DNA of 64,000 nucleotides from Polytrichum commune. Lineage: Eukaryota; Streptophyta; Polytrichopsida; Polytrichales; Polytrichaceae. The stretch spans positions 18,786,001 through 18,850,000 of the forward strand of contig OX485806.1 in assembly GCA_950295325.1 (NCBI GenBank). The letters run 5' to 3'. This document shows positions 34,892-63,858 of the stretch, in pieces. The position numbers and the translations under genes are program-made. The notes under the pieces were generated by a model. It saw only the letters and a program-made list of their open reading frames with translations, was not told the DNA's origin and did not search any database. The stretch's first letter is position 1. Each line of letters begins with the position of its first letter.

Positions 34892-34930
<39 letters not shown>

Positions 34931-34954
34931 CCGTGTTGAGTCAAATTAAGCCGC

Positions 34955-40638: not shown

Positions 40639-40643
40639 TCTTC

Positions 40644-41497
40644 TGTTGCGCACCTCTCCATGAGGAGTGCCCGAAACACCATGGGCACAAGGGGGACCCC
40701 GGAGTGACACCCGGGACTTGTGGCGCCGTTGGTGAGAGGGCCCAAGTGATCCTAGTGTGGATGAGGTCCCCGGGCGTTGGGAACGCCTCCCATCCACGAA
40801 GACTAGGAGGCACAAGGGTAAGGCCATGAGCTATGCGTAGCTCATGGCGTAGTGATTCTAGAATGCTCAAGAACACCTCAATCGGAGGTGTGAGCTAGGA
40901 GTTATGGCCATTTGAGTGGGGCGCTGTCCCGGGACAGCGCCCTGCTACAGCGGTGCCTGGGAGTGATTCCCGGGACTGCCAAGGTTCAAACAGGCATAAC
41001 TTCCTCACCACTTGCCCGAATGGGGCAAGTGAGGAGTCCATCGGCATCTACGTGAAGCGTAGATGAAGATGGAGTGGTTGGTTGCTGGAATCAGACATCA
41101 TACAAGGAAGTTATGATGGTCTGAAGCTGCTGGGGGCTTCTAGGCCCAGCGGCTAAGGGAAAATGTCCACTTGGCCCCAACTCTTGGTAGAGAGACAAGA
41201 GGTTGGTTGACGGTGGGGTAGGGGCCCCTCGTAGAGTCCTAGAGGCTTATATGGGTGAGGTGGTGTGGCCTCACCCACCCGAGGCCGAACGGCACGGCCT
41301 CCATGGGCTTTGGCCCATTGTGAGGCCATAGTTGCCTAGTATGCTTCGGGTTGTTGTAGTGTTGCTCCGGCAACGCGATGATCAACATAAGATTGGACTT
41401 CCATGGATGGAAGTCCACATCTAAGGAGTGGTTACCGATTAAAGGGGTGAGTCCCGAAATCAAAGTAGGAGGGTTGGTTCCCCTCCTATGAACTAAT
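40644..41497 (-). mobile_element. Solo LTR, copy C, 3' part (split by the 22-kb insertion)
   Basis: Reading leftward, this is the 3' seven-eighths of the LTR family seen at 1637 and 17460. On the plus strand it starts TGTTGCGCACCTCTCCAT, the reverse complement of the LTR end. The pentamer TCTTC at 40639-40643 is matched by TCTTC at 63854-63858, just beyond the other piece of the same LTR. The two pieces (854 and 125 bp) add up to 979 bp, the length of the intact copies. The LTR was therefore one unit before the large element entered it. Confidence 0.95.
41494..41497. other. Left TAAT target-site duplication of the giant element
   Basis: TAAT directly precedes the left terminal inverted repeat. 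The same TAAT follows the right terminal repeat at 63725-63728. With one copy removed, the LTR reads GAAC-TAAT-GGTCCGGGG, closely matching the uninterrupted LTR at 1637-2609 (GAACTATAAGGTCGGGG in the same orientation). Confidence 0.9.
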
Positions 41498-41525
41498 AAC
41501 ACTATATTAAACATTTCGGGACTTT
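41498..41525 (+). repeat. Left terminal inverted repeat (28 bp)
   Basis: Starts AACACTATATTAAACATTTC and ends GGGACTTT. It matches 63697-63724 in inverted orientation at all 28 positions. Similarity stops abruptly after it. Confidence 0.95.
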
Positions 41526-41566
41526 CGGGAGTCCCAAAGTGAAGATTTTTTTACATTTTGGGGACA

Positions 41567-41821
41567 TGGGAACATATTTATTGCTCCCAGGAACATGCAA
41601 CTAGCTTGTGGGAACGTGGGAACAATGAATTCAGACCATGTGAATGCCAGATGCGCACGTGGGAACCTATGTATGGGAACGTTAAAGCGAACGCATAAAC
41701 GCTCTATGGGAACATGGGAACGATATATGGGAACGTTGGGAACGCGGGAACGCTCTATGGGAACGTATGTGCGCACTGTGGAACGGGGGAACAAGAAGAC
41801 ATTTTGTGGCTACATGGGAAC
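41567..41821. repeat. Left subterminal TGGGAAC cluster
   Basis: Eleven exact TGGGAAC heptamers (starts 41567, 41609, 41617, 41660, 41674, 41707, 41715, 41728, 41737, 41758, 41815) plus GGGAAC variants, all in one orientation reading inward. Such subterminal clusters are typical transposase-binding regions in TIR transposons. Three copies in the mirrored orientation lie at the other end. Confidence 0.88.
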
Positions 41822-42282
41822 GGTGTGTGGTCGCGGCAGGGTAGTGTGGTTTGCAAACGTGATAGAAGGGGTGTTTGTGGTGTGCACAGTGACAGACCGA
41901 GGGCTCATTAATACAAGTAAACCCAAACCCACATCCAAATACAAAGGATAGACCTTGCATTACATACTTCAAAGTTCAAATTACAACACTTCACATTAGA
42001 TAAATGAACCCACCCTCTATAATGCTGGTGGTTTCCATTAAGAGTTGCACGGGTACACCGTGCCCACAATGGGGTTCCATTTAGCTGCATAGTGTTGAAA
42101 TCAACAAAAATTGCACCCACATGTCCGAGAGGAGCCATGATGGTCTCCCATCGAGGAACCACCCCAAAAAAATTAGTACCAATCATTGGAGTATTTGATG
42201 TGGTGTCTCACATTGTCAAGGAAATCACATCTAATCATGAATCATTGTGTGACGACTACGATGTGGGTTTTCCAATCTCGCA
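41822..42282. other. Spacer downstream of the transposase-like gene
   Basis: Non-coding; it should contain the 3' UTR and polyadenylation region of the leftward gene ending at 42283. Confidence 0.5.
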
Positions 42283-45200
42283 TTACGAGGAAGGGTTGCC
42301 CCGAGCTCCCCGTCTACCAGTTGCACGGCCACGACCTCGAGTTCCATGTCCACCCCCTACATTTCCACGTCCACGACCTACTCGTCGCGCACTCGGCACA
42401 TCAACGTCCTCCTCAACCGCCATCCCTCCGCGCTCTTGCGCAGAACAACGGCGAAGGTTGTCTTTGGCAAATTCAATCTGCTCTGGTGGAATAGTAATCT
42501 TAAGGGGCTCAACATCTTCATGTGCAGGTAGAGGCCATGCTGCCAAGATGCAGTCAATTGGTTGCCAGTCGGGGATGGAATATTTCGAATCGGCTTTCCA
42601 CTTGAAGTTCGTGTTGGAGTCCCAACCATGGTATTTCTTTGTTATGTCTCTAGCAGTTGAAGTGGGAGTGAACCATTGTACCAGAATCTGACGGGGATGG
42701 TCCCCAGTGACGTTCAAGTTTGGTGGACACAAAGCTCGGCACACCCAAATGGGTCTATCAATATCTTGATCTTGGGGTCGAAGAATGAGGAAATGCCCCT
42801 CATGCACGTTGTCGGCAATGCGGAAAGCCGGTGCAGGTCGAAGGTTAGAGGGGCCCACATAATGGTCATCTGGTTGGTGTTCCTCACGAAGTTCACCAGT
42901 ACTCATGAAAGGATGTGCGTCCCTTTCGATTCGGGAGGATGGCCAGAATCCCTCCTGGAGTGCCAATCCCGCAGTGTACACATTTGTGAGGGGTGCCCGT
43001 AATGCCTCCAGTACCCCAGTCCAGTATTGTAAAAGATGTGTTTGTGAGCCCCTATATGCTCCGGTCATGTCATGGTCACATATAGATTGCCAGTAGTCAA
43101 CAAACCCTTGCAACCCAACAAGAACATCGTCCAGTTTTGCCATTTCTCGAGGTTTAGCAGGGTAAGGTTCCCCAGGTGGGAAAACTGGCTCCCCCTTTAT
43201 GTTGGATTTCCACATCAATATGCCATCCTTGGGCAACCATTCATCATGCGTACTAAGCACCTTGTAATGCATGACGGGCCAACCATCATCCCGTACAACA
43301 AATTTGAATTGTTGGGCTTTCGTATGGCCAATGAGTTTGTCTTGGCCATCAGGAATGTACTCACTAACAAAAGCCCTCCAATCTGGAAGCTCCTCTATCA
43401 TATGTGGGATGATAGGGACCTTCTCCATGTCCATGTATGATTTCATGAGCAAGGGGATAGTGGGGTAATCATGTTCACGCAAGTCCATACTCCATCTACC
43501 AAATGAAGCGTCAATGTCGTCATGTGTATGACCAACTAAAAGGTAAGACACGTGGACCTCTGTGAATATACCTTTGGCCGTGAGCATGGACCAAAATGCC
43601 TTCACATATCTACACTTGTTGTCCTTCCAACAATTATCGAGTTGAACATGCAAAACGGGTGGAAGCGAGACAGCTGGAATAGGCTCACTAGGTGGAGGTC
43701 GTAATCCTGACAAACATACATCACTCCCATGAAGAACAGCACGATAAAGCGGTGACCGACCCGCACCATGGAATAGCATGCGAGATGATGAAGCCGGGGG
43801 CTGTTCCAAATCGCGAAGAAGCCTCGCAAATGAGCCCACAGTATGGTTGCAATCACCAGGATACAAATCCAATGCATAATGAGCATATCTCTCATCTCCA
43901 TGGCCATGAGCCATCATGCCTGTCACGGAAAGTGGTAGTTTCGTGAACATATCAGTGTCTTTGTTCTTGTTAGCAAAGCATGGAGATGCAGTTTTGCCAT
44001 GGTCCATTTTGTCGTGAATGATGGTCAAAACCTTGCGCGGATGCTCAATGGACAACGCTCTCATACAACGGTAAGCATTACGAGCGGATTCTTGCTGTGC
44101 CTGGTGCTTCTCCAACTGCTTGGAAAACCCGGTGTGTGCGGCAGAACCTTTAACATGTTGAAGAATAATAGCCATAAGTGAATCGCATTTCCCACAGCGA
44201 GCAAAATTGTCCCCTGCTCTTTTTGTCACGTAGTGCTTAAAATAATTCTGTCTTATTTGGCTCAGAGTCGAAAGAGAGATTGGTTGCAACCCACATTTGT
44301 CATTCACCTGAATATCATACCACATACAACATTTAGACAGCCACAGAAATGAGAACACCTGGATTGAGGCAATCACTAACAACACATTGAAAATGGACTA
44401 AGTGGAACATCGGGAGCCTACTAACCTGGTTGATTGTAACTAAAAATTTCTTCCATTTTGTGCCGCGAGGCAAGACCATCTCCACTACTCGAGTACCATT
44501 AGGCAAAGTGCGGGATTTATGAGGCATCATGTCCGCTTTGTCCTCTAAGAGGTTGGAAAGAGTGGCAGTGGCTTGCTGAGTGGACACACGATACCGTTTG
44601 GTGTTCAAGTTCCCATGGTCTCGTGGTCGCACCCCACAATTGAACTCTTGTCGATTTCTGTAGAACGCGGTTTTTGAAATCACAAATATGTGCCTCCATG
44701 CGATTAGGCAAATATCACGTCCACTAAGTGTTACCACATTCGTATGCCCCCCCGGAAGTGGATGTACTTGTCCGTGGACCTCAAGACGTTTTGCATGCCT
44801 CATCCTTGTGGAGCAATCATAAAATTCAGTTCGAAGAGCGAGAGCCTCATCTCTAGGAAAGAATCTAAGGCACTCGCGATCACAACACAAAACTGCAGAT
44901 AGTTGTTGTATGCTTGCATTGGTTAGTATTTGGGATTTTTTCGTTGGCTTACGACGCTCTGGTATCCTCGATGTTTCATACGCTCTCTTCCCGTCCTTCC
45001 TTCGCTTCTCCAGCGACTTGGTTTGTGCCCGTAATCTGTGGCCACTAACAAGGAGATGATGTGCCAGAGTGCAACCACCGTGGAAAACACGAGAGATTGG
45101 CCACGCCCTCAAAGCAAACATGGCCCCCATGTCCATCATGCCATGAATAGGCTCCATTATTAGTACACCAACGTGATCAGGTCCCAAACATTTGTCTTCC

Positions 45201-45476
45201 ACGCAGTCAATTGGGTTTACATTACGGCAAATTCCTTTTGCCATATTGTGTCCATGTTCATTCACAAGCATAACAGGCTTGTTCACCCAATCATCCCTAC
45301 GAAGTCCACTGCAATTCGGGTCAATATCTTCAACCGGAACAGTTTCATCTTCCGAGAATATTGCGTCGGAAAGGGATGACCCCTGCACAAACACTTCATT
45401 AGTAAAACATATTCCAACAAACAATGTGAAACATCTTAGTTTAGAAAACCACCTCTGTGGTAGATTCCGCATCCAT
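42283..45476 (-). CDS. Probable transposase of the giant element (HTHDDID family)
   Basis: Three exons in phase 0: 45476-45453 (ATG, MDAESTTE), 45382-44426 and 44307-42283; about 1,001 residues. I chose this start because it splices cleanly into the long open exon. The N-terminal half has Cys/His-rich and basic segments including GRDICLIAWRHIFVISKTAF. The C-terminal exon has TIIHDKMDHGK (Asp near 426), HVQLDNCWKDNK (Asp near 551) and LLVGHTHDDIDASFGRW (587-593), a spacing suited to a DDD/DDE RNase H-fold active site. The tail is Arg/Gly-rich (RGRGNVGGG, GTRGRGRATGRRG). The 'GHTHEDID' motif is widespread in unnamed eukaryotic transposon proteins. Its place inside the TIRs makes it the likely transposase. 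Confidence 0.75.
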
Positions 45477-45698
45477 GTGCTCGGCCAATCTGCACAAGAA
45501 CACTTGCGCGGTCAGTGTTACAACTTAGGCCTAATATAGCTTCACGTACCATTCGCTATTGAATCATATTAGTGCTTGTACTCGCAATCACCAAACGTTT
45601 AAACTAAAAACACAACTGTAGATATCCTAAAGAACGAAAACTTCATCCTGTATTATCTGCCTTGTGACCTCACTAGATATCACCTATATCACCTGTTA

Positions 45699-45792
45699 CA
45701 ATATGTCGTGTATGTGGCGCGGGCATGCATCCCACTTTCACTCGATCGAGTGAAAGTGGGATGCATGCCCGCGCCACATACACGACATATTG
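45699..45792. repeat. Perfect 94-bp palindrome (47-bp arms)
   Basis: The arms 45699-45745 and 45746-45792 are exact reverse complements with no spacer. The centre is the 24-bp core ACTTTCACTCGA plus its complement (45734-45757). The outer 35 bases of each arm (CAATATGTCGTGTATGTGGC and following) are specific to this site. It lies about 220 bp upstream of the transposase ATG, within its probable leader. Confidence 0.97.
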
Positions 45793-45991
45793 GGCCCTTC
45801 ATGCCTTTTCTTTTCTCAGAAAATCCGGTCATAAATAGATGTTACCCAATCTATCCCACCCGATTAACACCTACCTCCCTCTATACATATTATTTGTGTC
45901 GATAATAAAAACGTCGATCACCAAACAATCACATCCTCTCCCCAGAAACTAATCACATCCTCATCCCCAAACAATCACATGTTCATCCCCA

Positions 45992-46139
45992 TGCAATCGA
46001 CTCGCCAGCCCACTTTCACTCGATCGAGTGAAAGTGGTGGGCCTGCCAGCGCCGCGCCACAAAACTTTCACTCGATCGAGTGAAAGTGGGCTGGCGAGTC
46101 GATTGCAGGCCCACCACTTTCACTCGATCGAGTGAAAGT
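45992..46139. repeat. Cluster of three core palindromes with mirrored flanks
   Basis: Cores at 46012-46035, 46064-46087 and 46116-46139. The 32 bp at 45992-46023 (TGCAATCGACTCGCCAGCCC and on) recurs inverted at 46076-46107. GGTGGGCCTGC right of the first core recurs inverted as GCAGGCCCACC left of the third. The cluster lies in the upstream leader of the transposase gene. Confidence 0.93.
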
Positions 46140-46408
46140 GTTGGGCCTCCCAGCGCCGGTTGTTCGGGCCGTACTGTACGGACTGCAGGGATGGGTACAG
46201 GGCCCCGCAAATATGGTGCCGCTGCAATGCTCCATGCATATGGAACGGCACATTGAACAGCGCCTCTTCGATCAGGTGTTTCTTGTTGCGTAGGACCGAA
46301 CCTTGTGTGAAATTGATCCCTGGAAGGGATAGAAAGAAGAATGTTGTGGTGTTGTGCTCCCTGGCACAAAGGGCGACAAAAGAGGGTTCGAGTGTGCTCC
46401 TTCCAGGC

Positions 46409-46416
46409 TTATATAG
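46409..46416 (-). promoter_or_regulatory. Probable TATA box of the transposase gene
   Basis: On the minus strand CTATATAAGCC is followed by an A/C-rich leader (CACAACACCACAACATTCTT). Transcription would start near 46380 and cross all four upstream palindromes before the ATG at 45476. Inferred from sequence pattern only. Confidence 0.5.
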
Positions 46417-46419
46417 TCG

Positions 46420-47190
46420 GGTGTAGCAGAATTGGTGGGAGAAGTGCCCTAATCCAATTTTGAAGGTTCCCTCCCTTTCGTTTTAGGCCGTCACAGATCC
46501 GTATGTGGACGGCTTTTGATGCCTTTGGGTGGGTTTTTACATGCACCTTGATACAATTGTGTTAGTGGGATTGTTTTGCATTATTTTCGGCATGATGTGT
46601 TTAAGCCAATCCGGTCCACCCCCAATCCTGTAATGATAGTTAGCACATCGCCCACTCTTGGGCATCACTACTATGAGCGCGTACTACCTGTTGGTACGCC
46701 TTTGGATCCAAGTTTGATTGATGAGATGAAAACACGCCAGAATGTGGTCCTATCAACAGGTACCCTCAGCCCACCACTTCCATCGCACTTGTGGCATCAC
46801 ACCCTGCTATTGAGGCGCGTACAACGTTGAGGTACTCACAAGCGCTCATTGTCGTTGCAACCTACATTTGTGCACCGGCTTCAAGGTTGAAGATATTTGC
46901 ACCCCTAGACCTTGAATCTCTTGAAAATAAATGGATGTCCCCAACATGTCATAACAATTACAATTAAATCATCGGCCCTCATCCCAACGTATCTATGTAT
47001 GCTTGTAGTATTGCAGATAAATTGCCATGCTCCCAATGCTATCGGAGTGGTTTATGGCACCCCGATGAGTTCTCCTTCCGAAATTCATATTAACTATTTC
47101 AATATTAATCCAAAATTAATTATTATGTGGGTGGGTCCAATTTCCAATTACAATGTGCTTTGCACATCTCTCAACATTGACATAATGTCT
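46420..47190. other. Unassigned element-internal spacer
   Basis: An 84-codon frame at 46576-46830 is unrecognised. No other feature seen. Confidence 0.4.
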
Positions 47191-47194
47191 TAAT

Positions 47195-47487
47195 AACTTC
47201 CCAATAGAGGTTAGTAACTTCCCAACTTCCCAATAGAGGTTACTAGTAACTTCCCAATAGAGATTAATAACTTCCCAATAGAGGTTAGTAACTTCCCAAT
47301 AGAGATTAGTAACTTCCCAATAGAGGTTAGTAACTTCCCAATAGAGATTAGTAACTTCCCAACTTCCCAATAGAGGTTACTAGTAACTTCTCAATAGAGA
47401 TTAGTAACTTCCCAATAGAGGTTAGTAACTTCCCAATAGAGATTAGTAACTTCCCAACAGAGGTTAGTAACTTCCCAATAGAAGCAA
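47195..47487. repeat. 21-bp tandem repeat, about 13 copies
   Basis: AGTAACTTCCCAATAGAGGTT and the variant with GATT alternate with a 21-bp period; two positions carry an extra AACTTCCC. The leftward open frame reads as a seven-residue WEVTNLY repeat, a by-product of the period. Confidence 0.92.
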
Positions 47488-49800
47488 ATTAGGAAGGGGC
47501 TTATTAACCCCATTATAGTAACCCCATTGGGCTTATGGGGTTCAACAATTCATAAATTAAATTGGAAGAATTTGAAATTTGCGCCTCCAACTTCATCTGA
47601 GGATGCCGTCTCGAATTGACCCTAGACCCTTCTACCCTATTTAACAATTAGTCCAATACCCTAAATGAAAGGTGAAAAGTGCATGTGTGGGTTAATATTA
47701 GTGAAGATTGAGTAGCCTCTGGAGGCCCATCAGCCTACTTAAACCCTAAACCCTAAACCCTAAACCCTATACTCGAAGTACCACTTTGGTTTGCATTTGA
47801 AGCAAATAATGAATGGGCTACCATGATACAAAACCAATCCCAAATATATTTGATATTCATATTAAGTGCTATGTCTGAATCGGTTGCTTCCACCATTGGT
47901 CACACTTTTTACATTATTTTGTTAGGTCCAATAGCTAAGTCATAGTCTAAGAACTCTAAAATGATTTGAATCAGCTGATCAAACTAGTCAATTTAAAGCG
48001 TTGTCTACATTTGAGCACGTCGTAAGTTAATCTCATCCTAACACGTGTTCATTTAGTGTTCCCTCATAACTGCACGTATTACAAGCATACAACTCTTGGA
48101 CAATTGATCTGCGTTAGTGACAAATATAGGTGTTTAATTAAGAAGCGCGAACATAAGGCCCTCAAACCTTAATCACCATGTGTCCAAGTGTCTTCGTGGC
48201 AATAATGCATCCAAATAAATGCATGGCTTGGACCCTGTAGGAAGCAGTTACAACACTGGCCATTCCCGCAAATTCCTGTGAGCATGCCACGTGTCACATA
48301 TCTTCACATCATGTCTTCAAAAGTTCACGCCCAAGCAGTTGCTCTTGCAATGGTCGGAGTCAATTGTTGAAAGTGCCTATATTGTTCGTAATTGGGAGTT
48401 CACCCATTGGATCTCCCCTTTATGACCTCTCCACTTTCCTTCCATCCACACTCATAACCTTAGTACGTGTAATTAGGTTGCCTTCGCAAATGGGTAAAGT
48501 TGTGTTGCCTCTTACATCGCCTCTTTACGCAAGCAACTTTCCATAGGTCAAACTCGGATCAAAAACCTTATATTAAGTTTTTTGGTTCATTCCTATCACA
48601 ATTAAAGTCCATACAAAATTTGTGTATTTTGTTGTACTGGTAATAAATAATCAAGTAATGTGACATGCCAATAGATTAGTGCAAGACTACCTAATTGCCA
48701 ATATTGGTGTAGGTAGATTCATTGGCATTTATTTGAGCTACTAGTCTAAGAGACAAATTGAATCCAAACTTAAGTTAGAGTTAGAGCAAACCAAGAGCTA
48801 CCTCAATTGATGGAAACAGGGATTTGAGTATATTTGGATTATGCATTAATTTTGGACAACACAACTGCCTAGTAGTATATGGCGTGCACTAGATTGGAAA
48901 ACTACATGAAATTAATATAATGGTGGTTGGCAAATATGGCATACATTGTCAAACATTTGAAGTTGTCACTGATTGTTGTGTTGTCACTCCCACTCCAGTG
49001 CGCAATAATTGTGAACTTTTTAGGGTTTAGGGTTTAGGGTTTGGGGTTTATGGGTTAAGTTATTTAGTGGGCTCCAATCTGCCTTTGAAATCCAATGAGC
49101 TCAGTTATGTGCAAAATGCAAGGGTGGCCATTACGAATGGAACGGTCATTTGAAGCTCCAATGTGGTGTTTTGAAAAATGGGGTAACGTTATGGTCACTA
49201 ACCTTTCACCATTTAAACTAGTGATCAATCTTGGGTCAAGTAACATAGTGACATTTCAAACATATTGGCATAAATATGCTTACAATTCAACCTACAAGCC
49301 TCAACCCTCCATCCTAAACATGCACTCTAAAAACTAAAACTCTATGCCTGAACCCCAAGTTCTAAACGTTACCCCTAGACAATGAGTTTAATATCCAGCC
49401 GACGTTGAATGAATCATATCATCGTGACGAAGGCCACAAACCTATGCATTGGGGAGTCAAGTGTTCCACATGTTGATGGATGAGAGTAAACTTGTCAAAG
49501 CATAATTATTATACCCATAAGAAGTTTACACATTTGGTATGACACTAGTCGTATAACTAGTGTTAGACATAAATGCGCCACCACCCTCCCTACGACCATG
49601 CACCTTCTCTTATCTTTGTTAAGAAATTTTCACATCCTTACTAACACTAAATTTGGGCATGTGACTTACCATAGTCCAAGTTTAGTGTTTGAGTTCACAA
49701 TGAATGTTACTTACTTTCATCTAGGGTTACTAATATTTAGTGTATGCGTTCGTATTTTGTGTATCTAACACTAAATATCACTAGAGTGGGTTGGGACATA
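47488..49800. other. AT-rich element-internal spacer with two telomere-like tracts
   Basis: Four CCCTAAA units at 47741-47769 and about three TTTAGGG units at 49021-49043 face opposite ways 1.25 kb apart. They match the plant telomere repeat but are internal. No coding region recognised. Confidence 0.7.
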
Positions 49801-51880: not shown

Positions 51881-52159
51881 TGAATTAGTTGGTTAGTTGT
51901 CCAAGGTCTGCAAGACTTCTCGGCCTCTAATATGCATCCCACCTTCCGTCACATGTGTTCACCTAATATGTGTCTATGAGGGTTTCGGCTTGTGTGAAGT
52001 AATTTGGGATGTTAGTTAAGTTCTACGGTTAGGTGAGCTGGTCTAGGTACAGAGTAAGTGTCGACTTAAGCTAAATTAGTTCAATTGGTTTGCAGTGCAG
52101 GTGTTATTCGTTGTGTTGTTGTTTTTGTTGTTGTTGCTACATTGGAAGCTAGTGATTCC

Positions 52160-52442
52160 ATGGAAGAAGACCCATTGATTGTTGATAGCAGTCACTGTGA
52201 TGACGAGTCTAAAGTAGTATAGCTAAGCGATCATGCACAAAAATATGCTAAAGATGTTTTGAATTTTATGGTTAGCCAAGGTTTTCAGATTTTCAACACC
52301 CAGGAGTTGTTAGGAATGGAAAAAATCCATAACAAACTCATTAGAATTGGTGTTGGACAATAAACATCACTAAAACAATGTGACATTAGAAGCTCCTTTG
52401 TCTCTAGTGAGAGGTCTTTACCTGGTCTCAATGACAGATTAT
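52160..52442 (+). pseudogene. Decayed coding exon, unrecognised
   Basis: The frame from ATG 52160 reads like protein (MEEDPLIVDSSHCDDESKVV, LSDHAQKYAKDVLNFMVSQG, EKIHNKLIRIGVG) but has two internal stops before its end near 52442. The frame stays meaningful on both sides of the stops, so this looks like a mutated exon. Family not recognised. Confidence 0.4.
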
Positions 52443-55132
52443 GATGTGCTCTTGCTGTTATTCACAATTTTGAATTAGAGTTTACATGTAAAAACATTGA
52501 AGTCTTGTATTTGTTATTTTCTTTTTTTACATTGAAATTTTATTTTGATTGTCTACCTATTTTTTTTGATAATATCACATTATGCACAAATCTTCAGAAT
52601 GTGACATTATCAAATATGACACCTTCAATGCTTATATCACACTTTATGGTGAAACGGATGCTGTGATATTATCAAGGTTAGACTGTACCAATATGTTGAA
52701 ATGTCAGTACCGTTTCAATATACTCAAACATCAATGTTTCATTATTGAAATTATTATTCTATCTTTTCACCATGTGTGTTCTTTAAGTTTGGTCTCACTT
52801 ATATTATAATAGTATTGAACATCGCTTAAATGATAAACATGATAATGTGCACTTTGAACAAAAATTTCAATACATACATGAAGGGCAATTTTTGAGCTAA
52901 CCCTTCATTTTGAAAGGGAAAATTTTAAGTTACCCTTCCTTATGAAATACAAGCAACCCTTCAAATTTATTCCCTGACACTAAACACCATAAACAATGTA
53001 ACAATACTTATTGAATGCAGGGCCTAGTAAACAAATTAAACTTTTTAGGTTTGATCACCCCACCTTATTTTTCACTCGGAAATTAAACTCAAGGTTTTGA
53101 TGATGATTTCAAGACAAAATTGCTCAGAAAAGAAATATTTGGACTACAAGGGAGCGCTAAATTGTCGTCCAAAGTATTCCAATGTGCTACTCTCACTGTC
53201 ATAATGTAGATTTTTCAATTAATATTTTTGCTTAAACATGTTACTTATGTTGATGAATTGTATCATATGGGCAATTAGTAGGCTAGCCTTGACACTTTGA
53301 GACCCCGCCGGCATCTAGTTTAGGCCCTTCGCAAATTGTGCACTTGACACTAAACATCATAAACGGTGTAGTACCTTCTTACATGTGGTGAAATATATAT
53401 GTATATGAATATGTATGTGTATATGTATAATTTTTGAGCTGCATATATATAGGTCCATTCAACTGAATCGTTTTTGAGAGTAGAGATTATCAACGTTTCA
53501 ATACATAGTACACTCTTTTAAACGTGTCTTCTTGATGTTTGCTCTTTGATCCTCACTGAACCCCATACCATTCAAATATAGGGGTTTCGGTTTATGTACC
53601 AGCCAAGCGGTGGCGGTGGCCGTATCATATCTAAATTGAACCATTGTGATGGAATCAAGCCATTTGGACGAAAGCTCATTTGGTAAGTTAAGTGAATCAT
53701 AAGTGAAAGCACCAACTAACATCATACAGTTTGCAATCAATACCCTCTACAGTTAGTAGGAAGTACCCTTCCTACTAACCCACACCCTCCTTAATGAGAA
53801 CGGGTGAAACTACACCCTAGCCTACTCGTCCGCCCATCATGGTCCGGCGTCTAGGATCTGGGCCGTCCATTATTGACGGCACAATCCTGACCATCGGCAC
53901 TTGGGCGAAGGGACGTGGCCGTTCCCAATCTTGGGTCCAGAATGACCTCCCCCGCTCAACACTTTCATTGTGTTTTCTCCTCTTCGATCCTAGTGTTTTC
54001 TCCTCTTGGTTCTTCCGTTGCAACATTGTGCACCCTCTCCCTCTCCGCACCCGGCTCCAAGTGTATTATGCATTTGCCTTCGTCTATGCTCCTTGCTTCA
54101 TTGAAATTGCTGATCTAGTATGCACCTTGCACCTTGCTTCACTGCCATCCGGTTGATCTCTTCTAGTATGCACCTTGTTTCATTGAAATCTGGTTGATAT
54201 CTTGTAGTATGCACCTGGTTCACTCCAATCTGGTTGATATCTTGTAGTATGCACCTGGTTCACTCCAATGTGGTTGAGCTCTGCCTCTAGTATGCACATT
54301 GCTCAACAATCTGCATCTTCCTTTTTTCAATTCACAATCTGCATATCTCCCTTTTCGCACATTCCTCCACCCTCCTGAAGTGCCATCCACACCTGGGATC
54401 CACTCAGTATATCACAAAGAGCATCCTGGTTATGTTTATTTCATTGAATGCATTTTGCTTGACGTTTTTCTATACATTAGGCACCCTGAATTCTTATTAA
54501 GAAATCTTCTTTTGTTTGTTCCATCTCCATGGATTCGGGATGTTCACCCTGATACTCTTGATTTCTAAAGAGTATGCACCTGGAGCCTCCAAGTGTATTA
54601 AGTCAATTTTCGTGTTCCACATTGTTTGTTTGCTATGCTTCATTGAAATCTTCACCCCCAGCATCCTAAATTTGTTCAGTGCAATCGGCATCTTGAATTT
54701 TCCTTCGATATGCTCACTTTTTGAGGTATTTACAACTGGAACCTAATCACATTCTGGTTTTTCTTTTTCAATCCAGGCCCCTGAATCCTTGCAGCATAAG
54801 CATTCAGATTAGCCATATTCCTGTAAACAATATTAAATAACCTCCATCTTGATCCATGTAGCAAGACATGGTATTGGTTTCTACAGTAATCAGAACTTAT
54901 GTAAAATCCCCACTCCTGCTCTTATTGTTGATTCCAAGTGAAGGTCGTGCAAGCAGAGACTGAGTAGCAAATATACATCCATACTCTTCACACATCAGGT
55001 ACACTTCCCGGCTTGCATTGAATGTCAAAGACATAGAAATAAGAAGTTTACAGTCGAAGTATATTTCAAGATATAGTGGTGGGAAATATCCCCGTTCACA
55101 CCTGACTGTACGGACACTCTTCAGGGTTGGAG
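52443..55132. other. Element-internal spacer upstream of the ParB-like gene
   Basis: Between 54100 and 54330 a TAGTATGCACCTTG/CACCTGGTTCACTCCAAT phrase with GGTTGATATCTTG recurs four or five times, a diverged short tandem repeat. Apart from that I see no gene. The last 100 bases (CTGACTGTACGGACACTC, then CAGGG) resemble sequence beside the palindromes at about 46170-46190. Confidence 0.5.
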
Positions 55133-55450
55133 GCGCTGGGCCACTTTCACTCGATCGAGTGAAAGTGGCCCAGCGCTGGCGTGCTGGCTGCCTGAGAGCC
55201 ATGGCTGGCCACTGGCCACTTTCACTCGATCGAGTGAAAGTGGCCCAGCGCTCGCGTGCTGGCTGCCTGCTTGTGCCATGGACAACCATGGCTCACTTTC
55301 ACTCGATCGAGTGAAAGTGGCCCAGCGCTGGCGTGCTGGCTGCCTGAGCTGGCCACTGGCCATTTTCACTCGATCGAGTGAAAGTGGCCCAGCGCTCGCG
55401 TGCTGGCTGCCTGCTTGTGCCATGGACAACCATGGCTCACTTTCACTCGA
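55133..55450. repeat. Tandem array with five core palindromes
   Basis: Cores at 55143-55166, 55218-55241, 55295-55318, 55362-55385 (one base changed) and a half core at 55439-55450. The first is the centre of a perfect 44-bp palindrome, 55133-55176 (arms GCGCTGGGCCACTTTC and on). Units alternate between CAGCGCTGGCGTGCTGGCTG and CAGCGCTCGCGTGCTGGCTG, giving a two-unit period of about 145-150 bp. The array ends about 80 bp before the ATG of the ParB-like gene. Confidence 0.95.
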
Positions 55451-55532
55451 TAACATGAAAGCATTAATGTTGAGTTGAGATGCATTAATGTGGTTTGAAG
55501 ATTAACTTATTTCACATACCATTGCAGGAGGC

Positions 55533-58500
55533 ATGGACAAAGTTGTTTTCTGGACAGATATAGTTGGAGTCAAACAAACAGGACCAACTGCTCAATGGGT
55601 AATTAGAGACTCTCATTTGCAGAAGTGGTCGCTGGCCATTAACAAGAGAAACAAATCTTCAGGGTACGAGCTTATATTTACGTACAAGGTAAACAATAGT
55701 TGGATTCCGAACCCTGGAAATCCAATTACCATCGCTCATGTGGGAGCGAGGGACAGGCTAGAGGTTTCGGTTATGGAGGGGGTGGAAGAGAGAATTTTAT
55801 CAATTGATTGCAAGAAGCATACATTTCTCTTGGTGCCATTTTATGAGTCCATGGCCTCATTCCCTTCGAAGGAGAAGGAAGAGATAGAGAAGGTGATGTC
55901 ATCTGGAATATCCAAAAGAGCCATAAACTTTGTGTTGGAGACACTGGAAGACATCAACAGTAGAGAGGCAGCTACACGGGAAGAATCAAGGCAGCAAAAG
56001 AAGAAGCAAGCCGAGGTTATACTGAAATCCAAGGCCGATGAAGGTGGCAGCTCTATTGGACAACAGCCGAAGGCAAAGAAGGGGAAAAAACCTGAAGAGC
56101 TAACCGCATCACTGGAGACGGAGAGAAGGAAGCCTCACGAGGTGGTGCCCCACGTTTCTACAGATTCTCAGAACACGGAGAGGGATGCTGGGGATGCCGG
56201 GAGTGGAAGGAAAAAGAAAGCAAAGAGGGCTTTGTCACCCGAGAAGAAATCAAAGCAAAAGAAAATGAAGCCCGACGTTGTTATGCATGAGGAAACCCCA
56301 CTGGTCTTGACTCAAGCGGAGAAGGGTCGAGTTATATCGCAAGGTCAACAACCCAGCCTTGAGGAAGCTGCTCTGGATAGGAAGAAGTTTTTGCAACTTT
56401 TTGGGCACATTTATCCATTCGGCGCAGAATCGATATTCCGTGTACCCATCAAACAAATGAAGGGCGCAAAAGCTTATCAAGTTACGCGGCCTTTGGATCC
56501 AAGTGGGGTGAACCTCATGAAGAACTACCTTATCCAAATCCCGCCTGCTTGGCCTCAGCACAATCTGTGTTTGATGCCGAAGTTCAAGAAAGGTGAAACA
56601 TGGCGAGAAGGCATGACATGGGATGACATCAAGAACATGCAATTCGCCATAATCAATGGGCAACATACTGTAGCCGCATCTACGGAAATAATTGCTCATC
56701 GAGATACCGATCCGAAGCTCAAGGAGAAGTTAAAGGTGTGGCCCTGCACAATTGTGTGGACAGAGGATCCGAGCATGACCGTCAGGCTTTCATATACATT
56801 GAACAATTCGAACTCGTTCAACAAGTTCACACCGACATGGACTACACAAATTCTGTATTATCGCAGGGTTTGGGTGAAGTTGAACAAGCCCGAAAAGCAG
56901 CGTGCGAACGCCTCTGAGGCTACACAGGACCCTGAGAAAACATTGGCTTGGAATGTATGTTACTCTGCTCCCTTAATTCATCAGACCTCTCAAGTGTTGA
57001 CATGACCTCACACCACTTTCACTCGATCGAATGAAAGTGGTGAGGCGCACCTAAAGTGTTGACATGGCCTCACACCACTTTCACTCGATCGAGTGAAAGT
57101 GGTGAGGCGCACCTAAAGTGTTGACATGGCCTCACACCACTTTCACTCGATCGAGTGAAAGTGGTGAGGCGCACCTAAAGTGTTGATCATGCAGGCATTG
57201 TAAACCATTGTATCCTAAACCAATGTATCCTATATCCATGATGTGCAGAACTTTACTACCAGCATGGAGGCATCATTCACCGCAATCGCAAGAGGGATCA
57301 CGCATAACGATCTTAAAGCGGAACTCACGTTAATTATGGCCCCTGAGGAAACATCAAGATTGTGGAAGAAAGTGTTCATGTCGCACGAGAAGGGCTTATT
57401 TATCAACCCGGACAAGCCAGGACGCACATACCTGGAGGATCATGTGGAGGCTCAACAAAAATTACGAGCTCGCCACGAGAAGTCCAAGGCAGGAATACCC
57501 TTCGTGGAGAAACCTTTCGTGACTAAACCCCTTACAAGGGAGACATTCAAGAGTATGTCAGGACTCACAAAGCCAGACTTTCACCTGGCAGCGAGACGGC
57601 TTTTAGAAGGGAGGGGAGAGGACGACGTTCCTAGTGTCACTCTCAGGCCTTGCAAGAACAGCAATGTCGTGACACTGAAGTCATGGTGCAATTTCCGCAA
57701 GTGGAAGAATATCTTGCTGCAGGAGTTGGATAAGCGGGATCCCAATAAAGTTGGCTTATGGAAGAAGGATGATGAGGGGAATGGGTTCCTGGATCGCGAC
57801 GTATGGACAAAATTCAAACGGGAGCATGGAGTTACAAAGCCGAAATGGGTAAAGCTCTACCAGGTTGCGACTTCAGAGTGGTTGAACAGGAAGAGGGCGA
57901 CTAACAACAAGTCCTTACCGGTACAACCGGCTTTAGACCGATTGCTTCGCGACTGGCTGCAAACAGATTTCAACGAATGTACAGGGCAAGTGATCACGCG
58001 GTGGGTGTCACATAATGTCATTAAGAAACGATTGGTGATTCCCAAACAAGATTCCAGTGATGTTGAGTGGATTGAGGGAAGCACCATTGCCGCGGGGTTT
58101 CTGGACTTCAGGTTCATCCCTGGATGTGTAGATGAACCAATCCCTCCTGAAGTTGTGGAGTCCTTGGTTAAATACTTGTGCTCTCCGGAATGGACACCAG
58201 GGGTGAAATCTGTTCCAGCTTGGATGATTATCTCCGACTTACGTAGCCATGATGCCTCGCTCGTATTCATGTCGTCGCTTATGCGCAGACATCCCAACAC
58301 GTTTGTGATCGTCCCGTCGTTCTATTTCCCTTGTCCTGCAGAGGAGATAGCCGACCCCAAAGAAATAGTTGGAAAGAGGCAAACCCCTGCCCTCTACATC
58401 GACCACCTCATTGTCCCAGATAAATTTCCCAGGTGGAAGGTAATTGCATGTCCAATGCTAGCCCCGGATTCGCGCCGATACAAAGTAAAACCCAAGGATT

Positions 58501-60175
58501 GGTCTGAGTTAACATATGAAGTGAATCGAGGGGAGCTCAGAATGGAGGTCTATATTAAGTTCTTGGAGTACATGGGTTCCGCCGGAGGCATGGTTCTCAA
58601 TCTATTTGGGGGCTTGAAACCAGTTGCTGCAGCGTTGGTGAGTTCTACCTATCTGAACTATCTCAATTCGTTCCCTTTCACCTCTTCCCTCTTCCATTTA
58701 TCTAACCTCATTGATTTTCCAGATGCACGATTACAACGTCTTTTCCTACATGGATTCGGCATTCTTGCATATTCTGGACGCGTTGATTCAACGTGTTCGC
58801 GTACTTAAGCTGAAGGATTTCGCTGAACAAGCCGAAGATGAAGATGAGTACCAAGCCCACGATGGCCACATTCACCCTGACCTCAACCCAGATCCACCCT
58901 TGCTTTTGGTAAGTATTGCTAATGAATTACTTTCTTGTGTTTATGAAAATCATCGTTTTCTCACTTCCCCTTTATATGAGATGATAGTTGACATTGTATG
59001 GTTGCTACACAGGAGGATGTCGAAGATCGCGAACCGATCGAGGCCATGGACATTGACCGAAACCCCTCCGATGTGGAAGATCTTCCTGACGATGAAGATG
59101 ACGAGTCTGTGGAGCCTCCAAGTGAACGGGATACCGACGTCGAGAGCCATGGCGAATCCCCCCACACGTCCCATCACTCGGACGATGATGCCCCTGGCGG
59201 TTTGACTCCGTTGGAAGAGCATATGTCGACTGCCTGCGATCTCGGTGCTTCGCCGCTACGAGCGAAGCAACTTGACTTCGATGACGAAGACCGCGATGAC
59301 CAAGACCCAGCTGACGATGAAGACCAGGAGGATGAGGACCAGGAGGATGAAGAACACCAAGATGAGGACCAGGATGTCGAAGAAGAGGATCAGGATGCCC
59401 TTGAGGAGGATCAGGATATCCAAGAGGCCCAGGATGTCGAAGAGGAGGTCGAAGATGTCGATGTGGTTTTGGAGTCCCCTCGTTCTATTCCCGACACCTA
59501 CCAACCTCCACAGCCTGCTGCACGTAGTCCACAGAGACCCAATACCGCCGAAGTTGGTGCTAGTGGGTCCATGGACATTCCACAGAGTCCCCTCAGACCC
59601 AGTACTGCCGATGTTGGTCCTAGTGGTGCCATGGACATTCCACATAGGAAGTCCTCTCGCTCACGAAGTCGGTCCTCAACTAAGGATAGGCATAAACGCC
59701 GCCATGGTAAGCCCGTGGAGCCCCCACTTACGACGGCTGTTTTGGAACCTCTCATGATGGGCATTTTGAATAAAAATTTACCAGGCTTACTAACGAGCTT
59801 GTTCAAGGATGCCATGGCCCAGGCCATGCCACCCTCTCAAGTCGTGCCCACGCCAATTCCTACTCCGGCCACTGTACCAGCAAATGCGGAGGTTGTTTTT
59901 GTCCCCATTGATACTGACCCTTCCCAAGATGTCCTTCCTCAAGTAAAGCCAGCTCATGTGGATCAACCGGAGGTTGCTGAGAAATCGGCCGAGAAGAACG
60001 AAGTGGAAAGTTCACCTGCAGATGCCGGATGCCTGGAGGGGCCTTCACATGATTCCCAGCTTGTTGAAGATGAGGTAAATATCCTTGACCTATTCTCGCT
60101 TTTCCAATTGTTTTTAAACATGCTAGTCACTGAATCTCCGCCGGGATGTTTGATCAGGTTGGAGGCCGCGCATCA
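55533..60175 (+). CDS. ParB-like / DNA-methyltransferase-like fusion with acidic tail
   Basis: Exons 55533-56954, 57249-58637, 58723-58908 and 59013-60074, all joined in phase 0, give 1,353 codons; a last exon from 60158 would add VGGRAS and a stop near 60175. A CATTGCAG acceptor precedes the ATG, so a leader exon is likely. Residues 150-270 are Lys/Glu-rich. Near 372-382 AIINGQHTVAAS resembles the ParB/Srx-fold DGQHR motif. Near 917-940 GGMVLNLFGGLKPVAAAL followed by an acidic YMDS resembles methyltransferase motif I of N6/N4 DNA methylases, with L-N for V-D and GGLKP for GSGTT, so probably inactive. ParB-methylase fusions are common in bacteria and phages. Exon 4 is Asp/Glu-rich, then Arg/Ser-basic (likely nuclear). 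It may bind DNA or palindromes; that is inference. Confidence 0.65.
57005..57182. repeat. 62-bp tandem repeat, three core palindromes, in intron 1
   Basis: Cores at 57015-57038 (one base changed), 57077-57100 and 57139-57162 are exactly 62 bp apart. Each unit reads GGCCTCACACC-core-GGTGAGGCGCACCTAAAG. The flanks pair imperfectly (CCTCAC with GTGAGG). The array lies wholly inside the first intron of the ParB-like gene. Confidence 0.95.
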
Positions 60176-60372
60176 TAATCAAACCACTTGGAGAATAGGA
60201 AGCCGTTTGTAGATCGCAATCCAAGGCTGACTAGAGCATTGGACTTAAAAACCTTTAGGACATTTTAGTTGTAGCCAAACTCATGTACTGGGTATTTGGA
60301 AGATGTACATTTTACATTCAATGAAATGTGTTTCGTCTATACATTGTCTGCAATGGCTGTCATTAACAATGC
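60176..60372. other. Junction between the ParB-like and HAD-like coding blocks
   Basis: Stops occur in all rightward frames (for example TAA at 60176-60178 and 60364-60366). The sequence reads like a 3' UTR (TGTACATTTTACATTCAATG), so I treat the next block as a separate gene. A long intron joining them is still possible. Confidence 0.45.
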
Positions 60373-62405
60373 ATGTTCAATTCACATGCTGGTTTGCAAA
60401 TCGTTGATTTCACACGGCCAGAATCACCATGTGCAGCAGTCCCGCAAACGGGTGCAGCCGAAGAGGACACCTCACTTATAGTTGGCCCCATGCAAGCCCC
60501 CATTGCCACTACATGTCGAAGTCCAACGCTTGTCGTCACCCCTTTGGACAAAGGGGATCGTTCACCCCTCTTGCCCATAGGTAGTGACGATGATGTGGTC
60601 AAGTCGCCTTCACCCACAGCGGTCCACATTGCTGCCATCAAACCTCTTGCTCTGAAGCAGGCTGTCATCGAACATTCAGAGCCCGGGTCATCATCTGCAG
60701 GCCTGCAACAACCAATATCACCACCTTGTTACTGTACTGCTACCGTGGAGCCAACGGAGCCTTCCTCTTCTGCAGGCCCTTGCCAACCCGAGGCTCCACA
60801 TTGTGAGGAGCATGCTGTCGTTGATGCAACGGAACCCGCTGTCGTCGATCCAACAGAGCCTTCATCTTCTGCCGGCCCACATCATGTCAAGAAAGTCGTG
60901 GAACGTTGGCCACGCGACGACAGGTTCCCCGACTTTCCCCCTGACAATACAAAAATAGCCGAACGTCCATTTGAGGCTTGGCGGGCTATGCACGCCAGCC
61001 GTTCCGAGGTCACTTGCCCAGAGCTGCGTGTGCGGCCAGCTCTCCCAGTTTGTGTAAGCATCGTTTCCCCTTCTCATGGCACTTAGTTTGTGTAAGCTTC
61101 GTTTCCCCTTCTCAATAAAATTTCACTTGGTCCACTGGATTTTCTTTTCAATATACCCGGTTTATTTGTGTCCCAAACATTCATCTCCGCGTAGTTTTGG
61201 GTTCAGGGTGGACAAAGTGCGCAAACGACTATGGATGCGCCCTTCAACCCACACGTTGTTTATGATAAACTTTTTGTTTACGCTGACAACTACCCAACGT
61301 ACGATAGGAACATCTCTCAAGTTTTCACGAGGGAGATGGGAATAGCGTGTGCTAAAAGACTTATTTCTAGGGACCCTCAAGACCCTTCAGTAGGACCATC
61401 GGATCGCTGGGAATTCAATCCCATAACTTTCGAGGTATTGGTTTCCCAGTTCATAATAACTTTTAATATTTAGTTCATTATAAACCCCCATATCAATATA
61501 TGCACCTATTGCATATATGAATGTAAGTTATTGAATATATGAATGTAAGTTATTGAATATATGAAGTTCCACAATTTTCATTAGTTGCAACATTATATGT
61601 AATTCGAGTAAAGCAGGAGAAGTTGACAGTGGATTCCTGTCGCCAGGCGCTAGCTGCTGTACCCGACCGAAGGTTCATTCTGGTGTTCGATTTGAATGGC
61701 ATATTTTGTCATTGTATTCCTCGCGGCCGTTCCGCTTTACCCACATGGATGGTGCAAGATCGTGCGCCAGACAAGGGTCCGGCGATTGTTGGTCCCAAAG
61801 CTGTCCTACCTAGACTGGGTTACAAGCACTTTTGGGAGAGAATGACCCAAATGTTCTATGTTTGCATATGGTCATCTATGAAAAAGTCCACTGTGGACCT
61901 CGTGGTGGAGTTTTTATTCAATGGGATGTCAAGACCTGCAATAGTTCTTGGCCAGGAGGATTGCATCACATTCAAAGACATCTGGGACAATGAGATCAGG
62001 AACCCCCTAAAGCCAGAATCAATATTGTTCTTCAAGAGTTTAAACAAAACATTTTGGTGGCCGCCTGTATCTCTTGATTCCGGACGTGTTACTGCCACTA
62101 TTGAGAACACTGTTCTTGTGGATGACAGCCCCTACAAAGGTGCTTGTAATCCTCCCGGGAATGTATTGTTTCCCGATTCCTTCACCACCAACAAACAGGC
62201 AACTGCGGATATGAGAGCAGTTCTTCTCCCCTACTTCCAACGTATGTTCAATTCGACAATGAGCGACGTACGCGATTTTGTGATCACACATAGATTTGGG
62301 CAACAGCCGGTCCCGCATAACGATCCAGTCAGGGAGTCACTTATGATGGCCAACAAGCACTCCAATCGACCCGACTTGCACCCTATAACTGCTGTCCCAA
62401 GATAG
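60373..62405 (+). CDS. FCP1-like HAD phosphatase-like protein
   Basis: Exons 60373-61053, 61207-61434 and 61617-62405, phase 0 throughout, about 565 residues. The first 230 residues are Ser/Pro-rich with repeated EPSSSAGP and look disordered. The last exon is a HAD domain of FCP1/small-CTD-phosphatase type: RFILVFDLNGIFCH near residue 328 (DxN where classic FCP1 has DxDxT), FYVCIWSSM, PLKPESILFFKSL and NTVLVDDSPYKG near 469. Some plant FCP1-like proteins also have DLNG. The first Asp is kept, so catalysis cannot be excluded. The substrate may be a phosphoprotein, but nothing here shows which. The start codon is uncertain because it follows a stop at 60364, and this could be a 3' part of the gene before it. 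Confidence 0.65.
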
Positions 62406-62488
62406 TTAGCATGTAGGGTTTAGGTTAGGGCATGTAAGGTTCATGAATTGTATGGCATGTAACATTGTGTATTATATGCTTTGTTCAG

Positions 62489-63288
62489 TTTCCTCCTGCT
62501 GGATACACACCATCCACTTCCAAGCGATCGGCATTCGTGTGTCTCACCCCGCGGCATGAACACAACGTAGTACTGGCCTGCCATCCCTTCTCACTCGCCC
62601 ACGTGGGCGTAGAAGCTATCCGGGTCGCTAACTCTCAAAGTGTGTCACCCCTCACTGAAGCAACCCCTGAAGGACAGAGTCTGGTAAATATAGCTCATTT
62701 TGTTCACCTGGGAATGTTCTTACCCAAATAAATATTTTGCAAATCTCCTTTTCAATCTCTATCTAATCTCCAACATTTGGCGTGGAATGTATGTGCATGT
62801 ATATGAATGTTGGTGGTATTTGTGGGGCAATAAGTTGGAGAATGTTTTTTGCCTATGTCGGCCTGCAGGATGTTGACCTAAATATGCTCCCCCCAATGGA
62901 TGATGGACCACAACCCGCCCATACATTATCCATTATGCGCCCCACCCCTACCCGCGAGTACCAAATTGCGCTAATCGAATCGCAAGGCCCTGACTCAAGA
63001 GGTGTTCGTCTTCTACGTGCTGGATTGGCATCACTTGGGAAGACTTATGCCCCTCAACCCGCCATGACGAAGCTCCCTTCCACCATTAACCATGTGGAGG
63101 GCGTTGACACCAGTATGTGCACCCTCGCAGATGCTTCAACACCTCCATGCGGAACTTTGGCCATCGTGCACCCCGCTGCTACACGGGACTACCAAATTTC
63201 ACTCATCGAATCTCAAGGCCCTAATTCAAGGGCAGTTCGACTTTTGCGGGCTGGATTGGGTGACCGTGGAAATAATCGTATCGCTTGA
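62489..63288 (+). CDS. Small 3' gene block with an internal 40-residue duplication
   Basis: Exons 62489-62683 and 62869-63288 have clean acceptors (TTGTTCAG, GCCTGCAG), a GTAAAT donor and phase-0 joining. The second encodes two related segments, TREYQIALIESQGPDSRGVR plus LLRAGLASLG and TRDYQISLIESQGPNSRAVR plus LLRAGLGDRG, about 80 residues apart. There is no good ATG at the head of the first exon, so this is probably the 3' end of the HAD-like transcript by an alternative splice, or of a gene whose first exon I have missed. Function unknown. Confidence 0.5.
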
Positions 63289-63625
63289 CGAGGCAGGACT
63301 ACAATTGAGCGACCTGTAGAAGCCACAACATGTATTAAATACTATAGTTGATAATGCGTCCCCTTTAGCCACATATCGGTGGGGACATATATATAGCCAA
63401 ACATGTATGTAGACGCCTAAGAATGAGGCATTCGACATATGCTTCAGGAATAAAGATCTCAATTCAAACAGTAATTGTTCTACAAACTTGGTGTATGGGT
63501 TACCAATTCTTTTCTTTCGAGTACAAGGCTGTAGCCTCCACTCACCCACTCATTTGAACCGGTCAAAGTAGTGTTGCAATCAACTGGGAGTCCATTAGGG
63601 GTCACTGCTACACAACATAGGATTT
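63289..63625. other. 3' region of the rightward genes
   Basis: Non-coding; AATAAA-like AGGAATAAAGATC at about 63446-63458 could serve as a polyadenylation signal. Confidence 0.4.
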
Positions 63626-63654
63626 GTTCCCAATGTGTTCCCAATGCGTTCCCA
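63626..63654. repeat. Right subterminal TGGGAAC repeats (inverted)
   Basis: GTTCCCA at 63626, 63637 and 63648, an 11-bp period, is the reverse complement of the left-end heptamer. Both ends therefore read TGGGAAC inward. The unit here is ATTGGGAACxC on the minus strand. Confidence 0.85.
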
Positions 63655-63696
63655 ATGCGATCTCAATGGACACTCCAGAAGTCCCATATTGACGCC

Positions 63697-63724
63697 AAAG
63701 TCCCGAAATGTTTAATATAGTGTT
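63697..63724 (-). repeat. Right terminal inverted repeat (28 bp)
   Basis: AAAGTCCCGAAATGTTTAAT and then ATAGTGTT is the exact reverse complement of 41498-41525. It is followed by the TAAT duplication at 63725-63728. Confidence 0.95.
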
Positions 63725-63728
63725 TAAT

Positions 63729-63853
63729 GGTCCGGGGTTAGAGGAGCTAACCATTAGCATGGCGGTATGCGAAGGGTTAGCGACTCGTAACCTTTGCTAG
63801 AATTGAAAATTGGCAAGATGGTCAAGGGGGGGGGGCTAGCAAGGGTTGCGACA
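63729..63853 (-). mobile_element. Solo LTR, copy C, 5' part
   Basis: On the minus strand it starts TGTCGCAACCCTTGCTAGC and runs to CCCCGGACC, where the giant element enters. It continues on the far side at 41497. The pentamer TCTTC at 63854-63858 completes the target duplication with 40639-40643. A G-run at about 63826-63834 is a local expansion. Confidence 0.95.
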
Positions 63854-63858
63854 TCTTC

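Follow-up and report, generated by a model that had tools for sequence, protein, structure and literature searches.

A 64,000-nucleotide stretch of the genome of the moss Polytrichum commune (C4:18786001-18850000, hereafter the window) contains a DNA transposon of 22,227 bp at positions 41498-63724, nested in a solo long terminal repeat (LTR). The terminal inverted repeats (TIRs) of the element are identical over 28 bp (41498-41525 and 63697-63724; AACACTATATTAAACATTTCGGGACTTT on the left and its reverse complement on the right), and none of 100 shuffles of the window contained a match to these ends at three or fewer mismatches. TAAT adjoins the element at both ends. The interrupted LTR runs from TG to CA in two pieces of 854 and 125 bp that sum to 979 bp, and it is bordered on both outer sides by TCTTC. 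When joined, the two pieces align across the junction with both of the window's other LTR copies (86% and 81%). A first-pass annotation of the window had described both the insertion, with its perfect inverted ends and TAAT duplication, and the LTR that it splits; both descriptions hold on re-reading of the sequence, the first also under the shuffle test. The features that define the insertion are listed below, with the strand where a feature has one.

40639-40643: TCTTC, left-hand 5-bp duplication flanking the solo LTR (direct sequence)
40644-41497: solo LTR, left piece, 854 bp (alignment)
41494-41497: TAAT target-site duplication, left (sequence)
41498-41525, plus strand: 28-bp TIR, left (sequence, shuffles, other copies)
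63697-63724, minus strand: 28-bp TIR, right (sequence, shuffles, other copies)
63725-63728: TAAT target-site duplication, right (sequence)
63729-63853: solo LTR, right piece, 125 bp (alignment)
63854-63858: TCTTC, right-hand 5-bp duplication flanking the solo LTR (direct sequence)

The first-pass annotation had made its reading depend on a second genomic copy with the same termini. In the same 407.8-Mb assembly, the 196-bp left end gave 40 scored matches (22 at 97% or above) and the 225-bp right end 41 (21 at 86-100%). Half of the left matches (20) and 30 of the right ones came with loci, two partial hits among the 22 closest left matches being without one; ends on the same strand 15-40 kb apart were paired. 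This yielded 18 end pairs, all with no more than one mismatch in the 28-bp sequence at either terminus, and left two left ends without a right partner. In 15 of the 18, the window copy counted, the 4-bp flanks match, and each of the 15 duplications is different (TAAT, ATTA, GTAT, GTTG, CAAA, CTAT, CTGA, TCAT, ACTA, TAAA, TTAT, TATA, TATG, ATGT and ACAT). These copies measure 22,227-31,502 bp. The three pairs without matching flanks, two in a cluster on C2 and one on C6, look like rearranged inverted duplications. The cluster itself (C2:23193592-23289424) is a collection of rearranged, inverted element ends in which ATGG flanks recur at separate ends, as though a single insertion had been fragmented and duplicated. 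A diverged copy of 27,110 bp (C4:27786891-27814000) has two and three mismatches in its ends and TTTA on both sides; counts of such diverged family members are lower bounds. Together with this copy, the family provides 16 duplications, which are 81% A+T and none of which is TTAA. At the right end, 1,690 bp were compared between the window copy and the 14 others that have matching flanks, and identity is 99.2-99.9%. Their left ends vary in repeat number: 12 align throughout at 93.3-99.1%, one aligns piecewise and one across 394 bp only. The near-identity of the copies, and their matching duplications that differ from copy to copy, show recent movement of the family, with a stagger of 4 bp and no requirement for TTAA. 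We infer that it moves by excision rather than by replicative copying. The first-pass annotation of a giant TIR transposon with its own transposase is thereby supported and extended to a multicopy family with 4-bp duplications. The family is very probably one of autonomous giant TIR DNA transposons (22-31 kb), of which the window copy is a full-length member with long open frames in its main genes.

Between its ends, the element is organized as two oppositely transcribed modules separated by a spacer:

41568-41821, plus strand: left subterminal repeats, 13 GGGAAC in one orientation (motif count)
42283-44307, minus strand: transposase exon 2, with the predicted DDE/D RNase-H-like core
44426-45511, minus strand: transposase exon 1, start codon not fixed (open reading frame (ORF) open over 44333-45511; homology)
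45699-46140: palindrome array 1, upstream of the transposase gene, four copies, the first inside a 94-bp perfect palindrome
46200-55100: spacer, largely AT-rich, with tandem repeats and no ORF of at least 150 amino acids (aa)
55142-55386: palindrome array 2, upstream of the ParB-like/methylase-like gene, four copies (motif search)
55533-56954, plus strand: 'ParB-like' exon (30 homologues; no profile match)
56955-57248, plus strand: predicted intron of 294 bp, with palindrome array 3 (in-frame splice)
57014-57163: palindrome array 3, within the intron, three tandem 62-bp units (motif search)
57249-58637, plus strand: exon with a beta-class/MT-A70-like amino-methyltransferase fold
58723-58914, plus strand: continuation of the methylase-like protein, ending at the last base of homology, exon end not fixed (homology to proteins P0142 and P0146; phase 0)
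58992-60212, plus strand: acidic low-complexity ORF (ORF listing, diverged-copy comparison)
61557-62405, plus strand: NIF/FCP1-type HAD phosphatase-like ORF (PF03031, E 7.7e-10)
62767-63288, plus strand: last ORF, internally repeated (right-end comparison)
63626-63653, minus strand: right subterminal repeats, three GTTCCC, inverted relative to the left array (motif count)

The subterminal repeats and the palindrome arrays were absent from the earlier inventory and are added here. Subterminal arrays are the usual landing sites of transposases in other superfamilies. In the window copy, the 13 GGGAAC motifs of the left end lie within 324 bp; outside the end arrays, the motif occurs seven times in the element, always in reverse orientation, and 18 times in the other 41.8 kb of the window. 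Each of 20 left ends has 10-18 copies in its outermost 400 bp, and diverged right ends also retain the motif. Two short stretches of telomere repeat of the plant type lie in the spacer, at 47740-47769 and 49019-49056; they read (TAAACCC)n and (TTTAGGG)n and are oppositely oriented.

The transposase candidate of the first-pass annotation is borne out by a match to Pfam DUF7869 (PF25273). The predicted order of strands and helices, b1-b2-b3-a-b4-a-b5-a, positions D129, D254 and D294/D296 as in a DDE/D core. Transposases, integrases or transpososome chains fill the first 35 of 50 rows of the VIA-align structural comparison; Foldseek matches are weak. The DUF7869 transposase is predicted from these models to be a DDE/D enzyme of the RNase-H fold, and a C-terminal BAH-like (SH3-type) domain is suggested in exon 2. 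This predicted core is common to the structures of Mos1/mariner, the SETMAR transposase and retroviral integrases, although sequence identity in the structural-match rows is as low as 5-12%; the mariner target-site duplication is TA, unlike the 4 bp of the element. Among 109 matches to the transposase, the named relatives are two proteins of the moss Ceratodon purpureus and one of the green alga Cymbomonas. All belong to the same DUF7869 family: one Ceratodon purpureus protein, encoded on a 110-Mb contig, is 46% identical to the window transposase, and the Cymbomonas match is distant. A further 947-aa DUF7869 protein, in an unbroken frame and 46% identical to the window transposase, is encoded on L001, a 4.3-kb contig (1-4327) that is filed under a cyanobacterial (Synechococcales) metagenome-assembled genome but appears to be moss or algal DNA binned with bacteria. 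Exon 1 is homologous to the N-terminal parts of this protein and of P0010, P0024 and P0071. Among the matches listed from open-licence PMC papers, we found neither the name DUF7869, and with it no described element for comparing ends, nor a description of the present element.

As in the first-pass annotation, the element is not placed in a named superfamily after signature and profile tests. We file it as a TIR DNA transposon with the superfamily not assigned: within their reach, the tests below argue against Kolobok/piggyBac, KDZ, CMC and the C/DxxH group, and give Ginger no profile support. Ginger elements are defined by the Pfam integrase core, and no integrase-core match was obtained in 19 transposase members at E <= 1. 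Academ elements have 3-4 bp duplications, which the 4 bp seen here fit, and encode an XPG nuclease in addition to the transposase; a Pfam search of the nine ORFs of the element found no nuclease domain. Kolobok and piggyBac have a TTAA target-site duplication (PMC9587614), found in 0 of 16 cases here, and KDZ (Zisupton) has one of 8 bp (PMC12730594) rather than 4 bp. The CMC/EnSpm-Mirage-Chapaev-Transib group has C(2)C and H(3-4)H motifs between the second D and the last acid (PMC12730594), and hAT, P, MuDR, Kolobok and Dada have C/DxxH in that interval (PMC9587614); both signatures are absent from residues 254-296, provided that D254 and D296 are the catalytic acids.

The gene described in the first-pass annotation as ParB/methylase-like keeps the second half of its name at the level of fold, while the first half finds no support in Pfam, NCBIfam or PDB sequences. 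The sole basis of the ParB label is IINGQHTVAAS in the 55533-56954 exon, which we take to be a ParB-type motif; no credible ParB match was obtained for the ORF, its 19-row family or its halves in Pfam, NCBIfam, PHROGs, PDB sequences or tblastn against phages. A predicted phase 0 splice, GCTTGGAAT^GTATGT...GTGCAG^AAC, joins this exon in frame to that at 57249-58637, for which a test of the beta-class/MT-A70 amino-methyltransferase fold was positive at fold level. Amino-methyltransferases have the catalytic motif (D/N/S)PP(Y/F/W). Here, DFRF apparently occupies the DPPY position, as judged from strand order with no residue alignment, and is invariant in 20 of 20 aligned rows; the modelled fold is apparently degenerate and lacks the catalytic motif. 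The acidic ORF at 58992-60212 probably represents one or more further exons. The HAD-like gene of the first-pass annotation proved to be the NIF/FCP1-like ORF, in which DLNG stands in place of the DxD motif. Gene order is common to the window copy and the diverged copy. Between them, the accessory proteins are 63-67% identical, and the ratio of nonsynonymous to synonymous substitution (dN/dS) is 0.10-0.13 for the transposase, 0.11 for the ParB-like, 0.14 for the methylase-like and 0.24-0.30 for the NIF gene.

The three palindrome arrays are built on a 26-bp palindrome, CACTTTCACTCGATCGAGTGAAAGTG, of which there are 11 copies (eight exact, three with one mismatch), all within the element and against an expectation of 0. 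Among 13 copies whose intron was fetched, the number of intron palindromes varies from one to five. Screened for perfect palindromes with arms of at least 11, the diverged copy has palindromes in the same three regions as the window copy. Two of these, upstream of the ParB-like exon, have changed from TTTCAC/GTGAAA to TTCCAC/GTGGAA, which gives CACTTCCAC-TCGATCGA-GTGGAAGTG in place of CACTTTCAC-TCGATCGA-GTGAAAGTG in the window, the changes being mirror-symmetric. Its one intron palindrome carries the same change and differs at the outer bases, and three palindromes about 1 kb upstream of the transposase gene are related but differ more (GGTTCCACTCGRYCGAGTGGAACC). The diverged copy also has AT-type palindromes, and the window element has one unrelated palindrome in its spacer. 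On L001, AGTTTAGCTCGASTCGAGCTAAACT occurs three times upstream of the DUF7869 gene (at most two mismatches, better strand), with degenerate relatives downstream.

Together, these features suggest how the element might work. Most likely, the DUF7869 transposase would bind the inverted 28-bp termini together with the subterminal GGGAAC arrays, excise the element and insert it at AT-rich targets through 4-bp staggered cuts; the transposase and the two ends are enough for such a cut-and-paste account. The second, oppositely transcribed module would provide a fused protein (the 'ParB-like' first exon joined through the predicted splice to the degenerate amino-methyltransferase fold), a NIF/FCP1-like phosphatase and a small ORF. 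The fused protein most likely, or else another protein of the element, would bind the palindromes as a dimer, at the two promoter regions of the element and in the intron of the fused protein itself. Once bound, it would act on the chromatin or transcription of the element, by anti-silencing or autoregulation, as VANC does for VANDAL. Such self-recognition, serving regulation or anti-silencing, is a serious possibility to which we give somewhat less than an even chance; we propose it by analogy because the placement, copy-number variation and concerted divergence of the palindromes resemble those of VANC21 arrays.

In VANDAL, a group of MULE elements, VANA is the transposase, and MULE duplications measure 8-11 bp against 4 bp here. 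Pfam found no domain of the MULE or VANC type in the nine ORFs of the present element. The VANC21 motif forms tandem arrays upstream of VANA21 and in VANB21 and VANC21 introns, with repeats gained and lost between copies (PMC5735166). Array placement in the moss element is of this kind: the Arabidopsis VANDAL elements and ours are both DNA transposons with accessory genes, both have motif arrays upstream of the transposase gene and in accessory-gene introns, and in both the repeats vary in number from copy to copy and diverge together between subfamilies (PMC5735166). The VANC21 motif, YAGTATTAY, is however directional (PMC5735166), whereas that of the element is a 26-bp palindrome, and anti-silencing, an activity of VANC toward VANDAL, is a proposal for the element. 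A DNA-modification-related gene beside the transposase is also present in fungal TET/JBP-carrying DNA transposons of several superfamilies (PMC12730594); the element differs from these in having a degenerate amino-methyltransferase fold rather than a dioxygenase, and in its 4-bp duplications.

Several other explanations of the locus must be weighed against this account. An assembly join or segmental duplication could imitate an insertion, and the data do come from a single assembly whose C2 cluster, with two of the 18 pairings, looks duplicated. We give this next to no credence, given that 15 of the 18 pairings combine matching 4-bp duplications with differing flanks and that the LTR alignment runs across the junction. 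The accessory genes might instead be captured host genes that travel as passengers of an element needing its transposase alone, and they had indeed been termed cargo in the first-pass annotation. NIF/FCP1-type proteins are ordinary host proteins. Giant eukaryotic transposons, moreover, often carry captured genes (PMC6431247). However, the diverged copy keeps the same order and low dN/dS values despite its protein divergence; the methylase exon is present in 14 of 14 other full-length copies sampled (one partial owing to the fetch start) and the ParB-like exon in 13 of 14. The C-terminal half of NIF and the last ORF are retained at 96-100% identity in all 21 of the closest right ends, the window's own counted, the former with no stops and the latter with one stop in two of the 21. 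In addition, the homologue search, within its length limits, returned nothing but unnamed proteins for the ParB-like and the methylase-like ORF. Capture is accordingly improbable, and the term cargo needs correction: because order is conserved and the diverged copy bears the signature of purifying selection, the methylase-like gene, the NIF/FCP1-like phosphatase and the last ORF appear from sequence comparison to be a core gene set kept in order, not randomly captured cargo.

Size, several genes and exact inverted ends would also suit a viral reading, either as an endogenous virus or as a hybrid of virus and transposon like Maverick or Teratorn. We regard this as highly improbable, since polymerase, capsid, packaging ATPase and protease are absent among the nine ORFs in Pfam, six ORFs gave no PHROGs match below E 0.09, and no relative was found in IMG/VR viral contigs by protein alignment or exact DNA pattern. 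Teratorn (41-182 kb), Polinton/Maverick and Helitrons are likewise very large multi-gene DNA elements (PMC6431247), but the nine ORFs lack viral or Helitron hallmark genes and the transposase is different. Membership of an already named superfamily, such as Academ or Sola, is unlikely without being far-fetched. A 4-bp duplication is compatible with Academ, Sola or Ginger. Furthermore, 20 DDD/E superfamilies are named (PMC9587614), of which the sequence comparison here covered a minority. Against this, DUF7869 is the sole Pfam family at E <= 0.05 in any of the 19 transposase members, and the CMC and C/DxxH signatures are missing between D254 and D296. For the palindromes, the main rival to self-recognition by an element protein is a hairpin-based function, in which they would act as nucleic acid (hairpin RNA, small-RNA source, cruciform, or replication or recombination site) and not as protein sites. 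They are perfect or near-perfect inverted repeats, one of 94 bp; array 3, lying in a predicted intron, would be transcribed; and symmetric substitutions preserve a hairpin as well as they preserve a dimer site. Nevertheless, the conserved core is short (about 26 bp) with variable flanks, the arrays lie at two promoter regions and one intron, and a related family has another palindrome upstream of the same gene, for which a protein target is the simpler account. We consider the hairpin explanation rather unlikely, but worth holding beside self-recognition.

We know of no description that combines a TIR element of 22-31 kb, with intact ends and many close copies, a transposase named only as a DUF, and accessory genes with built-in palindrome arrays whose sequence changes mirror-symmetrically from one subfamily to another. 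Our tentative proposal, which we think less likely than not, is that the element represents a superfamily-level new lineage of giant plant DNA transposons, whose catalytically altered methyltransferase-fold fusion may recognize a private palindrome at its promoters and in its own intron, shield the element from silencing and evolve in step with the palindrome from subfamily to subfamily. Should the palindromes prove to be targets of a protein that the element itself encodes, the VANC strategy would have been invented a second time, independently, in plants remote from Arabidopsis, and the element would offer a directly testable example of a methyltransferase fold serving recognition. The DUF7869 family would also gain a biological role, and ends by which its elements can be annotated.

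Outside the element, the window contains other features of note. At 25539-28078 (plus strand), a protein kinase ORF precedes an NB-ARC ORF, an arrangement resembling the kinase-NBS resistance genes of mosses. A 632-aa ORF at 31784-33682 (plus strand), with SDGCANQFK...GTGHGKGPHDGAGAVLKR and no Pfam match at E <= 0.1, sits between a 304-aa ORF (29610-30524) and an ORF at 34015-34530, and may be another unclassified transposon. The window's one Rfam hit in the gathering-score listing, at 34673-34955 (minus strand), is 283 bp of eukaryotic 18S rRNA (RF01960; 230 bits; model positions 1184-1495), a fragment that may be an insertion derived from rDNA. Finally, a tandem array at 3377-4731 consists of nine units of about 152 bp, with higher-order periods of 301 and 453 bp.

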